Assembly: GCA_018666555.1 (NCBI GenBank)
Contig: JABIZD010000183.1
Span: 1 to 32,624 of the forward strand
Origin: Gammaproteobacteria bacterium
GTDB taxonomy: Bacteria > Pseudomonadota > Gammaproteobacteria > Pseudomonadales > Azotimanducaceae
Direction: 5' to 3'
DNA: 32,624 bases
The notes beneath the pieces were generated by a model. It searched no databases. It was not told the DNA's origin and worked only from the letters and a program-made list of their open reading frames with translations. Both the position numbers and the translations under genes were made by a program. Shown here in pieces: positions 8,671 through 12,992 of this stretch. Every line of letters starts with the position of its first letter. The stretch's first letter is position 1.

Positions 8671-9373
8671 TAACAAAGACGTAGAGATATATATTCTCCA
8701 TACGCGAAAATATAGAGATACCAGTCTGTTAGCTGAGGTTTTTTCCAGAGAAGAAGGCCGGTTTAGTTTGTTGTTCAAGGGAATCAGGCGCGAAGCTAAG
8801 AAGGGTTCACGCAGTGCAGGGCAGATCCAGCCTTTTGTTCCTATTATTGTCTCTATATACGGACGGGGAGACCTGAGAACTGCCGTTTATCAGGAGACGG
8901 CACCCTTTGGTTACCATTTAATGGGTAAGGCATCGTTTATTGGATTGTATATCAATGAATTAATGTACCGCGTGCTTGGTAAATATGAGCCTCTACCTGA
9001 GCTTTATGATGATTATAAAAGAGTTCTGAACGATTTGGGTCGTCCTGAATTTGATCTGGGTATGTTGCGGCGCTTTGAGTTTGGCCTGTTGATGGCGTTA
9101 GGTTTTGGTGTTGATTTCGGTTTTGATGCAAAAACCGGCAAGCCGATAGATTCTGCTGGGGCTTATAGATTTGTTCCCCAAAGTGGGTTCGAACGGGCAA
9201 CTTCTTCTGAGCCTAAAGCTTGCAGCGGTGAAACCATCCACCGGATGGCCATGGGTGATTTCTCGGGGGCTGGTGCGAGTCTTTCAAAATGGATGGTCAG
9301 TGCATCGGTACGGCCGCTTTTGGGCGGAAGACCCTTAAAATCCCGAGAATTGTTTTCAGCGAGGAACAGATGA
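8657..9373 (+). CDS. recO: DNA repair protein RecO
   Basis: RecFOR-pathway protein that anneals strands and helps load RecA on SSB-coated DNA. The 238-residue product has the N-terminal OB-fold part (YILHTRKYRDTSLLAEVFS, then GRFSLLFKGIRR), a helical middle with ELMYRVLGKYEPLPELYDDY, and the typical C-terminal motif LLGGRPLKSRELF. It begins inside the end of era. Its stop TGA overlaps the acpS ATG (ATGA, 9370-9373). In most gammaproteobacteria pdxJ follows recO; here it does not. Confidence 0.92.
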   Translation: MTQSDNKDVEIYILHTRKYRDTSLLAEVFSREEGRFSLLFKGIRREAKKGSRSAGQIQPFVPIIVSIYGRGDLRTAVYQETAPFGYHLMGKASFIGLYINELMYRVLGKYEPLPELYDDYKRVLNDLGRPEFDLGMLRRFEFGLLMALGFGVDFGFDAKTGKPIDSAGAYRFVPQSGFERATSSEPKACSGETIHRMAMGDFSGAGASLSKWMVSASVRPLLGGRPLKSRELFSARNR

Positions 9374-9759
9374 TTATATCGGTAGGCACCGACCTGGTGA
9401 AAATTGCCAGAGTCGAACAGGCTCTGAACCGCTGGGGGCAGCGGTTTGTCAAAAAACTGTTAACTTCCGAGGAGCAATTACTGCTGGAGGGCAGGTCGAA
9501 GGCGAACCAGGGGGCGTTTCTGGCTAAGCAATTCGCGGCCAAGGAAGCGGTCTGTAAAGCGCTGGGCACAGGTATGAGGCAGGGAGTGAGTTTCCCGGCG
9601 ATAGAAATTCCCAGGAATCGATATGGCGCACCAACAGTGAAATTATTTGGCGCTGCTCTGGCCAGGCAGAATAAATTGCAAATCTCTACCTGGCACTTAT
9701 CTATTTCAGATGAATCAGGATACGCCCTCGCTTTTGTTGTTGCTGAGGGCAGATATTGA
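9370..9759 (+). CDS. acpS: Holo-[acyl-carrier-protein] synthase AcpS
   Basis: Transfers 4'-phosphopantetheine from CoA to apo-ACP, making it active for fatty acid synthesis. The 129-residue product has the family's N-terminal IISVGTDLVKIARVE, with Mg-binding Asp8, and the helix FLAKQFAAKEAVCKALGTG with Glu59. ATG 9370 is preferred to an in-frame start at 9289. It begins the conserved N-terminus and gives a 4-bp ATGA overlap with recO. The last 45 bp overlap the 3' end of the convergent gacS-like gene. Confidence 0.95.
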   Translation: MIISVGTDLVKIARVEQALNRWGQRFVKKLLTSEEQLLLEGRSKANQGAFLAKQFAAKEAVCKALGTGMRQGVSFPAIEIPRNRYGAPTVKLFGAALARQNKLQISTWHLSISDESGYALAFVVAEGRY

Positions 9760-11754
9760 GGCCTTCTTAAACGGTTCAGGGGTCGTTTGTAGCCAGGTCA
9801 GCAGGTTTTCGGCCTCAGAGATCACCTGTTTGGTGGCCTGCATAATATTACCCTGGGAGAGATGATTGGCAATTTGACCCGCCTGCCTGGTTGATTGCTG
9901 CAACCTTGTCGCAGCAGTGAATTCAAGCGCACCGTTAAGTTTGTGAAGCAACTGTTTTATGTCATTGTGATCGCTCCTATCCCAGGCAGATCTCAATAGG
10001 TTCAAGTCTCCGGGCAAGGTGGTCAGCAGTATGGCCAATATCTGGATGGCGAGTTCAGTGCGCCCATTTGCAGCTTTAATAGCAGCAGCGGAGTCAAATA
10101 TGGGCAAGGCAATGCCTTCTTCCAGTTGCCCCTGGGTTGGTTGGTCCGGGGCAGAAGCCAGCGAGGTTGTAGCGGCTAGCAACAATCTTTCTAAGCTGGC
10201 TTTGTCGACGGGGTTGGTCAGTATTTCAGAAAATACCGGGTGGGGCAGTTTATCAAGGTTGCTCGTAGGGATACTAGTAATACCAATAACTTTCAGGTTC
10301 GGTTGTCGGTATTTAATTTTCGCAGCGATGCCTGCACTGTTCTGTTCGGGTCGTTGCAGGTTAACCAATGCCAGGGAAAACTCCATTTCGTCCATCAATG
10401 CCATGGCCTCATCACTATTTGAAGCAGTGAATAAGGATTGTTGCAGATCTTCGAGATACACCTTCGGGAGAGCTGGACTGGCGGATTCATTGTCAACCAA
10501 CAGAATACAAGGGGACTTGGGATCGCGGCGTGACCACTGTTGGAATTTTTCGGTCAGCACCTTTTGTAGATTGGCGATGAGTTCAGGATTATCAGGATCC
10601 CCTTGGCTTTGGCCGAGCATCCAGACCCTGGCTTTATCTGTGATATAGGGTTTAAAACGATCGAAAAAGGTGCCACTGGATGACGTGACCAGGAACAGGT
10701 CGATCTGTCCAGATTTGAAATCCGGGTTGATGGAGCAGCCAAAGTACTGGATACGTTGTTTTAAGGCCAGTCTCTGGATTGGATCAGCAGCTAATACCAT
10801 TGCAGTTCTGCCTTTTCCTGGATGGAGCCTGTTTTCGCTGTAGCTCTTCAATGGCAGCTGGAATTCAGGGTTGGTATGATCGATTTGGTCGGCGGTGAAG
10901 GCTTCTACCCTGGATATGAGCTGTAATAAACATAGATGGTCGCTACCAGGTGAGTTGACAACCAGCCCCAGTGAATTGGTTTTCCCCTGGCTCTGCAGTG
11001 CTATATCTATAAGGAAAGACAGTAGCCTGACCAGATTGATTCGGTGTACTTCAATGCGGCTAGGCATTGCCGGGTCGATAATAAGATTGATAAGCCCATT
11101 ATGGATTGGTTTGAGGAGTTCAAGCCAGTTGTCCATTGTCTCAATTAAATCAATGGATAGGATCACAGGGTCAGGTTGCTCCTGCGAAATCGAATCAGAC
11201 AGCAATTGAATTTGTTCGTGGAAGTCGGAGGTCGAATGGGAATCAAGTGAGTTTTTTGCTTCTGACGGTATCCGGTCGAGCTGCTTGCTGATAATTTTCA
11301 GGGTGGCGGAGGTCTTTTCATTCAGCCTGTTTAGTTCTGTGGACAGGTGGTTATTGTGGACGTTTAAATTATTAAATAAGGCTTCCGAACTGCGTTTTTG
11401 CTGCTGGTTCTCCAATTGTGAGTGTTCCAGTTTTTGTTGTAACCCTGAGAAGGTAGATTGTATGTGGCTGATCAACTGTGCGGGTTGCAGTAGTTCTGCC
11501 GCAGGAGCGTCAGTGGGTGCACCCTCATTGTTTTCTGAGGTTGATAACGATCGGTGGAATTTTTGCAATTTTTTTAGCGGAATCAGATAGGAATTCTGCA
11601 GCAGGTTGAACAGTGTTACGCAAAGCAGCCATTGTGCCAGAAGGCTTGCTACCAAGAGCCAGGATGGTGCGCTTTGCAGCCAACTTACCTGGGCAATAGA
11701 AATCATAAATATCGAACTGATAATAACGGCAATCCGACGGCTTGATTTTTTCAT
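9715..11754 (-). CDS. Degenerate GacS/BarA-family hybrid histidine kinase, HPt domain retained
   Basis: Homologue of the GacS/BarA hybrid sensor kinase, at the usual gacS position beside cysM-rlmD-relA. Residues are numbered from ATG 11775; the start chosen is M8 (11754), which has a GAGGA ribosome-binding site (679 residues). Two membrane helices at about 14-32 and 38-58 have almost no periplasmic loop. A coiled-coil-rich region (100-170) follows. No H-box (HExRTP type) or ATP N/G boxes are visible; the N-box position reads FLIDIALQ. The receiver domain (421-535) keeps ILLVD but has Asn472 at the phospho-Asp position and Asn521 where LTKP is expected. The C-terminal HPt domain (about 562-660) is well preserved, with His611 in LLHKLNGALEF. 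The frame is intact over 2 kb, so this is not a simple pseudogene. I infer a non-kinase scaffold or phosphotransfer role. Confidence 0.8.
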   Translation of the reverse strand: MKKSSRRIAVIISSIFMISIAQVSWLQSAPSWLLVASLLAQWLLCVTLFNLLQNSYLIPLKKLQKFHRSLSTSENNEGAPTDAPAAELLQPAQLISHIQSTFSGLQQKLEHSQLENQQQKRSSEALFNNLNVHNNHLSTELNRLNEKTSATLKIISKQLDRIPSEAKNSLDSHSTSDFHEQIQLLSDSISQEQPDPVILSIDLIETMDNWLELLKPIHNGLINLIIDPAMPSRIEVHRINLVRLLSFLIDIALQSQGKTNSLGLVVNSPGSDHLCLLQLISRVEAFTADQIDHTNPEFQLPLKSYSENRLHPGKGRTAMVLAADPIQRLALKQRIQYFGCSINPDFKSGQIDLFLVTSSSGTFFDRFKPYITDKARVWMLGQSQGDPDNPELIANLQKVLTEKFQQWSRRDPKSPCILLVDNESASPALPKVYLEDLQQSLFTASNSDEAMALMDEMEFSLALVNLQRPEQNSAGIAAKIKYRQPNLKVIGITSIPTSNLDKLPHPVFSEILTNPVDKASLERLLLAATTSLASAPDQPTQGQLEEGIALPIFDSAAAIKAANGRTELAIQILAILLTTLPGDLNLLRSAWDRSDHNDIKQLLHKLNGALEFTAATRLQQSTRQAGQIANHLSQGNIMQATKQVISEAENLLTWLQTTPEPFKKASISALSNNKSEGVS

Positions 11755-11910
11755 CCCTGGTTCCTCAACGACCATGCCAGATATATGTTGTTGTGGATGC
11801 TGGCGGACCTATCTTTGAATTTATCAGACAGCTAACTCAACGAGTCAGGCTCTTGGTTATTTTCTTAATTAGATAATAACAGAATCTTTCAACGGCTTGT
11901 CTGTACAATT

Positions 11911-12077: not shown

Positions 12078-12992
12078 ATGCCGGTTTCAATGCAACGATA
12101 TCCTACGATAGAAGAGAGTGTTGGGGAAACGCCGTTAGTGAGGTTGCAGCGGTTACCGGAAGCTTCTTCAAATATCATATTAGCAAAATTGGAGGGTAAT
12201 AACCCCGCCGGTTCAGTCAAGGATCGACCGGCCCTTAGTATGATTACTGGGGCAGAGACGGCCGGTAAGATTTCCCCTGGAGACACACTGATAGAGGCTA
12301 CCAGCGGCAATACTGGCATTGCTTTGGCTATGGCGGCTGCAATCAAAGGTTACCGGATAAAGCTGATTATGCCTGTTCATATGAGCGAAGAAAGAAAAGC
12401 AGCTATGCGTGCCTATGGGGCTGAGCTGATCCTGGTATCCTCGCAGGATGGCATGGAAGGAGCTCGCGACTTAGCTCTCACAATGGAACAAAAAGGACAG
12501 GGCATTGTCCTTGATCAATTCTCGAACCTGGATAATCCGATGTCGCACTATCGGGGTACTGGCCCAGAAATATTCAGGCAGACTGACGGGGAAATCTCTC
12601 ATTTCATCAGTTCTATGGGGACCACCGGTACGATTATGGGAGTCTCGAAGTTCTTCAATGAAGTAAAACCTGAGATTGAAATTATCGGTTTACAGCCTTT
12701 TGATGGGCAGTCTATTCCTGGAATTCGTCGTTGGCCTGCGGCTTACTTACCGACAATTTTTGATAAAGATGCAGTCGACCGGGTTATCGACATAGACCAA
12801 ACAGAAGCAGAAGATACAATGCGCCGACTGGCGCGCGAAGAAGGTATCTTTGCTGGTGTTTCATCAGGTGGGGCAATTGCTGCGGCATTGCAGATAAATC
12901 GAGAAGTTGAAAATGCCACAATTGTCGCCATTGTTTGTGACCGGGGAGATCGTTATCTTTCAACGGGTGTGTATGCGGACCCAATAGTTTAG
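12078..12992 (+). CDS. cysM: Cysteine synthase B (O-acetylserine sulfhydrylase)
   Basis: PLP enzyme that makes cysteine from O-acetylserine and sulfide or thiosulfate. The 304-residue product has the PLP lysine Lys48 in NNPAGSVKDRPA, the substrate loop EATSGNTGIAL, the phosphate-binding SSMGTTGTIMG and the C-terminal FAGVSSGGA. GNNPAGSVKDRPALSMI and YPTI at the start look like the CysM subgroup rather than CysK, and length equals E. coli CysM (303). ATG 12078 is used; ATG 12090 (M5) is equally possible, since neither has a strong ribosome-binding site. cysM between gacS and rlmD is the Pseudomonas-type order. Confidence 0.92.
   Translation: MPVSMQRYPTIEESVGETPLVRLQRLPEASSNIILAKLEGNNPAGSVKDRPALSMITGAETAGKISPGDTLIEATSGNTGIALAMAAAIKGYRIKLIMPVHMSEERKAAMRAYGAELILVSSQDGMEGARDLALTMEQKGQGIVLDQFSNLDNPMSHYRGTGPEIFRQTDGEISHFISSMGTTGTIMGVSKFFNEVKPEIEIIGLQPFDGQSIPGIRRWPAAYLPTIFDKDAVDRVIDIDQTEAEDTMRRLAREEGIFAGVSSGGAIAAALQINREVENATIVAIVCDRGDRYLSTGVYADPIV

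Follow-up and report, generated by a model that had tools for sequence, protein, structure and literature searches.

The Gac/Rsm cascade is taken to start with the kinase GacS; what is left for GacS to do once its kinase core has gone? The question is raised by a minus-strand open reading frame (ORF) in the stretch of DNA analysed here (the window, 32,624 nucleotides in full), which comes from a group of Pseudomonadales bacteria represented chiefly by metagenome assemblies, and all counts over the group are made within one GTDB family. The ORF ends in a TGA stop at 9715-9717 and starts at 11775 or 11754, ATG 11754 being the likelier start as it has GAGGA upstream and aligns with a Met in three sister genomes. 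Residue numbers count from 11775, as in a preliminary description of this DNA. The same full-length ORF is present in the three sister genomes at 53-55% identity and is therefore not a chance frame, in keeping with the intact 2-kb frame first described. The features of the locus are as follows.

9289..9759, plus strand: acpS, convergent, overlapping the gacS-like 3' end by 45 bases; locus anchor
9715..11775, minus strand: gacS-locus ORF, kinase-less GacS orthologue, 686 aa from 11775 or 679 aa from the likelier 11754 start
9760..10110, minus strand: HPt domain, aa 556-672
9943..9945, minus strand: H611, CAC codon, phospho-accepting His of the HPt, with K at H+1 and G at H+4
10150..10515, minus strand: receiver domain, aa 421-542, catalytic residues replaced (N472, N521; N429 beside D428)
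10213..10215, minus strand: N521, AAC codon, conserved Lys position
10360..10362, minus strand: N472, AAC codon, phospho-Asp position
10531..10824, minus strand: pseudo-receiver, aa 318-415
10894..11163, minus strand: shrunken ATP-binding (CA) relic, aa 205-294, N-box Asn replaced, without G boxes (profile-profile; alpha/beta in model)
11188..11484, minus strand: DHp (HisKA) relic, helical, aa 98-196, without the H-box His (profile-profile; model helices)
11596..11667, minus strand: membrane helix 2, aa 37-60, almost no periplasmic loop (hydropathy; AlphaFold model)
11674..11736, minus strand: membrane helix 1, aa 14-34 (hydropathy; helix 10-32 in the AlphaFold model)
12078..12992, plus strand: cysM, divergent (PRK11761.1, 513.6 bits, over cut-off); locus anchor

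The gene order is era-recO-acpS, the gacS-like ORF, then cysM-rlmD-relA, and synteny from era-recO-acpS to cysM-rlmD was found in 12 of the 14 loci of the genus, the other two being cut by contig ends. In five genomes of other families in the order, the gene beside cysM is a GacS of 912-959 aa with HisKA, HATPase, receiver and HPt; every scored site is present in all five, and four carry an sCache_4 sensor (none was seen in G027). The window ORF sits at the ancestral gacS locus, a placement which also rests on these intact comparators. Among 51 named loci, most of them from elsewhere, HisKA, HATPase, receiver and HPt occurred in one ORF in 16, mostly Vibrio. The tail-to-tail overlap of acpS and the gacS-like ORF (window positions 9715-9759) has a similar counterpart in the sister genomes.

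Pfam searches of the window protein at E<=1 returned Hpt (31.2 bits, over the cut-off of 24.6) and Response_reg (26.2 bits, under the cut-off of 30.2) and no other match, neither HisKA, HATPase nor a sensor domain, and there is no room for a periplasmic sensor between the two membrane helices. The best NCBIfam model is the BarA equivalog NF008318, matched at the C-terminus only with 62.7 bits, short of its curated cut-off of 890. The receiver matches the solved GacS D1 structure (7qz2), and the HPt matches that of BarA (3iqt), as does the HPt of the short forms described below. The preliminary description thus holds: the GacS-like receiver-plus-HPt C-terminus, the two membrane helices with almost no sensor loop, the missing H-box, and the codons for Asn472, Asn521 and the retained His611, to which we add D428 (GAC) and N429 (AAT). 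Its statement that no ATP-binding boxes exist is true of the residues, the N-box Asn and G boxes being gone, and has to be amended for the fold, as shrunken remnants of both kinase domains were found when family alignments were compared profile to profile: the DHp relic matched five intact GacS proteins (probability 95, E 4e-8) and the CA relic was matched over 52 columns (probability 96, E 1.3e-9). The AlphaFold model has a helical stretch and an alpha/beta part in this region. VIA-align rows cover mainly 420-550 and the HPt, so the relics rest on profile comparison and not on fold matches; it is from the DHp and ATP-binding relics found in this way that the window ORF is identified as a GacS orthologue. 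The pseudo-receiver matched the family receiver with a profile probability of only 44. With the H-box His, N-box Asn and G boxes gone, the protein, as judged from its sequence, is unable to work as a kinase through the usual chemistry, as had been proposed, and it falls outside the functional GacS kinase class because the defining residues were tested and are absent. It shares with GacS/BarA (NF008318) the locus, the domain order and the HPt, and differs in having no sensor domain, no H-box and no N or G boxes, and a dead receiver.

Does this state extend beyond the window? CysM was searched for in 206 genomes of the family and matched in 58, of which 53 had the gacS locus inspected (the window, 13 more of its genus, G015, G022 and 37 others; G085, G088, G173, G185 and G201 were left out). 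Forty loci were scored residue by residue, and dropping two rows of genus g37 and G095 left 37 kinase-less rows; the 53 loci comprise these 37, G095, five of g37, two that are cut, two with a matchless ORF and six with no ORF. By alignment the H-box His was kept in 0/37 rows, the HPt His in 34/37 and the Gly at H+4 in 36/37, which makes the loss lineage-wide, with the same residue missing in relatives. No HATPase match was seen in the 37 rows and HisKA gave a single weak one (11 bits, G087), whilst the N-box Asn appeared in 1/37 and an Asp at the G1 column in 3/37, where the alignment is poor. Receiver D, K and T/S were all present in 26/37 rows by alignment, or 24/37 excluding G004 and G007, whose receiver residues align as intact, yet Pfam finds no receiver there. 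The HPt defects are a Ser in place of the His in G022, an HPt split over two frames in G182, and a frame broken near a contig end in G013, with an HPt match in another frame.

The remaining loci are varied. Two (G198, G199) are cut by a contig end and have a receiver match and no kinase match, two (G172, G097) have an ORF without any domain match, and between acpS and cysM six (G093, G177-G181) lack any recognisable ORF, the gap measuring 0.8-1.5 kb in G177 and G178 and 95-180 bases in the other four. HisKA and HATPase were matched in four of the five g37 genomes (G099, G102, G103, G104), with G104 over the Pfam cut-offs, the fifth (G100) being cut too short to read. These g37 kinases (L326, L337, L316, L327) have a weak receiver and a weak or unseen HPt, the reverse of the window pattern. 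The G095 protein (L343:477-1889) keeps HisKA, receiver and HPt with no HATPase, the layout of a phosphorelay without its ATP-binding domain.

In an Era+RecO tree of 41 genomes (G015, G086, G087, G092 and G095 not included; several inner nodes weak), g37, which keeps its kinase domains, groups with three outgroup genomes and the kinase-less genera group together, with 0.997 at the split. This fits one ancestral kinase loss in the family, although the loss may have been stepwise or repeated, given the weak inner nodes and the five genomes outside the tree; on the sequences compared it is older than the window lineage. Both D and K are still present in the receiver of the sister genomes G001, G010 and G012, therefore N472 and N521 arose after the split and independently of the way the other half of the genus lost its receiver. 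Judging by this distribution, the kinase and the receiver were lost in two distinct events, one older than the other, which corrects the preliminary description. The receiver has also been lost in other members of the genus and in g29. Genes from the other half of the genus encode 529-667 aa or 287-295 aa (that of G013 is cut). The 287-295 aa forms have no predicted membrane helix, Hpt is their only Pfam family over cut-off and the HPt His is kept; the N-terminal part of the 295 aa form compared with receiver or pseudo-receiver at a profile probability of 6 or less, and its AlphaFold model is weak (mean pLDDT 64).

Selection on the gene was estimated as dN/dS by Nei-Gojobori; some dS values are >1 or saturated, and these are rough. 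Whole-gene dN/dS was 0.21-0.36 in ten pairs within the genus, above that of recO, acpS, cysM and rlmD in nine of them, the exception being G001/G012, where recO (0.30) and acpS (0.42) lie above the gacS-like gene. The HPt was the lowest region in the four pairs from the window's clade (0.043, 0.125, 0.081 and 0.086), with the pseudo-receiver second lowest (0.11-0.17) and the receiver at 0.27-0.43. In four pairs of short forms the HPt (0.13-0.32) was much like the N-terminal part (0.17-0.26), and in G004/G007 it was no lower (0.25) than elsewhere in the protein; in pairs from other genera the HPt values were 0.145 (G195/G202) and 0.140 (G082/G083). By these ratios the frame and the HPt are under purifying selection, as had been supposed when both were said to have been kept by selection.

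Is there still a pathway for the HPt to serve? GacA is intact in the window's own genome (292.6 bits, cut-off 280, phospho-Asp kept), at a gcdH-gacA-UDG-uvrC locus in the same place as in relatives, which settles one of the checks proposed earlier. It was found in nine of 15 genus genomes, eight over cut-off and one (G010) cut; the other six are not counted as losses because uvrC is also missing in five of them and cut by the contig end in the sixth. MED690 (G039 = G180; L268, L323) has no gene at the gacS locus with its acpS and cysM neighbours present, and there gcdH adjoins UDG-uvrC with no gacA between, an absence at that place in one genome. The genome search of G181 (= G040) found no uvrC. 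G182 (= G041) has an intact GacA though its HPt is split, which counts against a link between HPt and GacA. In G021 (L272) gcdH lies directly beside uvrC, without gacA, and CsrA is present in the genome. Two further checks, for CsrA and for a second GacS in the same genome, found neither. CsrA occurs in 10 of 15 genus genomes, and its absence from the own genome was rejected as a true loss: an assembly gap is likelier, because the aspartokinase that neighbours csrA in G001 is also without a close match (best 64%). The second GacS-like protein was searched for with the window protein as query.

On balance we lean towards the reading that the GacS orthologue has been turned from an unorthodox sensor kinase into an RcsD-like phosphotransfer relay. 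The kinase part was lost and the phosphate-passing part kept, therefore the Gac pathway has probably been rewired to another kinase's signal. The receiver of another hybrid histidine kinase would phosphorylate H611, and the HPt would pass the phosphoryl group to GacA, following the LadS-GacS-GacA route of P. aeruginosa. In most family rows GacS keeps its own receiver and the input could enter at its Asp or its His; the window receiver is dead, so here it would have to enter at the HPt His. The membrane anchor, inactive CA and intact HPt of a relay are present in sequence and model, transfer from hybrid kinase to response regulator being presumed by analogy. Synteny, the HPt His in 34/37 rows, low HPt dN/dS, intact GacA and one joint absence of gacS-locus gene and gacA argue for the relay; the lack of a donor, the HPt defects in G022, G182 and G013, the six gene-less loci and the weak HPt constraint of the short forms and of G004/G007 weaken it, as does the fact that the joint absence rests on one genome. 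Of the roles first offered, an HPt donor served by another kinase fits best, with sink and scaffold ranked lower. The rewiring of a whole lineage, also suggested then, agrees with the lineage-wide loss and the intact GacA, whilst the donor kinase is still missing. A more specific form, which we hold tentatively and a little short of an even chance, is that GacS became an open socket: after the ancestral loss of the kinase core, a receiver-HPt adaptor would let other hybrid kinases drive GacA, and parts of the genus would then have shed receiver and membrane anchor, leaving a soluble HPt at the gacS locus. Control of Gac would in that case have passed from a single dedicated sensor to a shifting set of kinases.

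Precedents exist for both halves of the relay idea in the LadS route and RcsD. As described in PMC7418988, RcsD is a membrane protein whose HATPase domain is inactive and whose working HPt stands between hybrid kinase and response regulator; it is thought to come from duplication, and its kinase partner is RcsC. The window case differs in that GacS itself was converted, there is no adjacent partner and the receiver is usually kept. In P. aeruginosa the LadS receiver uses the GacS HPt, GacS there still being a kinase (PMC4866733). The proposed relay shares with that route the use of the GacS HPt by another kinase's receiver; it differs in that no other route through GacS would be left, and in that the genus genomes searched gave no LadS-type sensor. 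A 2015 domain survey lists proteins with receiver and HPt and no kinase as RRHPt, with the number 312 (PMC4558063), the passage concerned listing types only and naming no GacS descent. Among the literature matches listed, with most subscription journals outside their scope, there was no report of a kinase-less GacS lineage, and term searches of PMC7695008 and PMC8175716 brought up nothing on one. A clade whose scored orthologues are kinase-dead, yet in which HPt and GacA persist, would be a natural experiment in pathway rewiring. The graded series of receiver with HPt, dead receiver with HPt, and soluble HPt offers possible steps from a kinase to an RcsD-like relay, and opens the source of GacA's phosphate to direct testing.

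The same data could be read as slow decay, in which residual use after kinase loss is followed by erosion in many lineages, with the HPt the last piece to go. The six loci without a recognisable gene, the HPt that is dead, split or broken in 3/37 rows, the receiver losses in the window, other genus members and g29, a whole-gene dN/dS above all four neighbours in nine of ten pairs, and the weak HPt constraint in G004/G007 and the short forms all fit this account. We nevertheless consider it unlikely, since the receiver has kept D, K and T/S in 24/37 rows across deep divergence, HPt dN/dS is 0.04-0.13 within the window's clade and, for two pairs from other genera, 0.14-0.15, and frames are open in 35/37 rows; neutral decay in relatives, which the preliminary description had set against its own reading, is countered by these open frames and by dN/dS <1, and favoured by the broken, split or absent genes of some lineages.

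HPt transfer is in general reversible, and the HPt might then be a phosphate sink or reverse relay that drains GacA and acts as a brake, which we judge improbable. In its favour, GacA could be charged by the intact unorthodox kinase of the own genome (L210, below); against it, draining would be helped by the protein's own receiver, and this is dead in the window and cannot be recognised in some members of the genus. Least probable to us is a scaffold or pseudokinase role in which other kinases would be controlled through contact, in the manner of RetS acting on GacS, and no phosphotransfer would be needed: DHp/CA relics and membrane anchor do persist in the full-length forms, and the pseudo-receiver is well conserved in the window's clade, but the 287-295 aa forms have neither predicted membrane helices nor recognisable kinase relics, and in them the HPt His stays.

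The relay reading calls for a donor, and none was identified for the GacS-locus HPt among the kinases of the own genome, which has 21 HATPase_c matches, not all of them kinases. A LadS/RetS-type donor is unsupported for the genus, as 7TMR-DISM had no match in 14/14 genus genomes searched (the own genome and G001-G013). Hybrid kinases without a detected HPt lie on L212, L215 and L218. L210 (contig C56) carries an intact unorthodox PAS-HisKA-HATPase-REC-HPt kinase at L210:2136-5018, beside leuA; having its own HPt, it could serve GacA without the GacS-locus protein, which we count against the relay. As a universal donor L210 was rejected: its relative in G001 (L348) has lost approximately residues 300-852, again leaving an HPt piece, and there was no match at E<=1e-30 in G008, G038 and G042, the only match in G012 being a different hybrid. 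L210 is intact in genomes whose GacS receiver is dead or missing (G000, G002, G003, G005, G007, G011) and broken in G001, which has an intact GacS receiver, whilst G008 has neither; the apparent pattern is loose, resting on few independent events, with G010 outside the search. A two-receiver hybrid of 1008-1014 aa in G001, G003 and G005 was also set aside, having no own-genome orthologue among the kinases compared (best 43% over 251 residues). In G001 (L345:1463-6821) this hybrid kinase is followed by a Castor/Pollux-type channel protein and then a single receiver, and by ORF length and receiver match the same three-gene layout recurs in L346 (G005) and L347 (G003).
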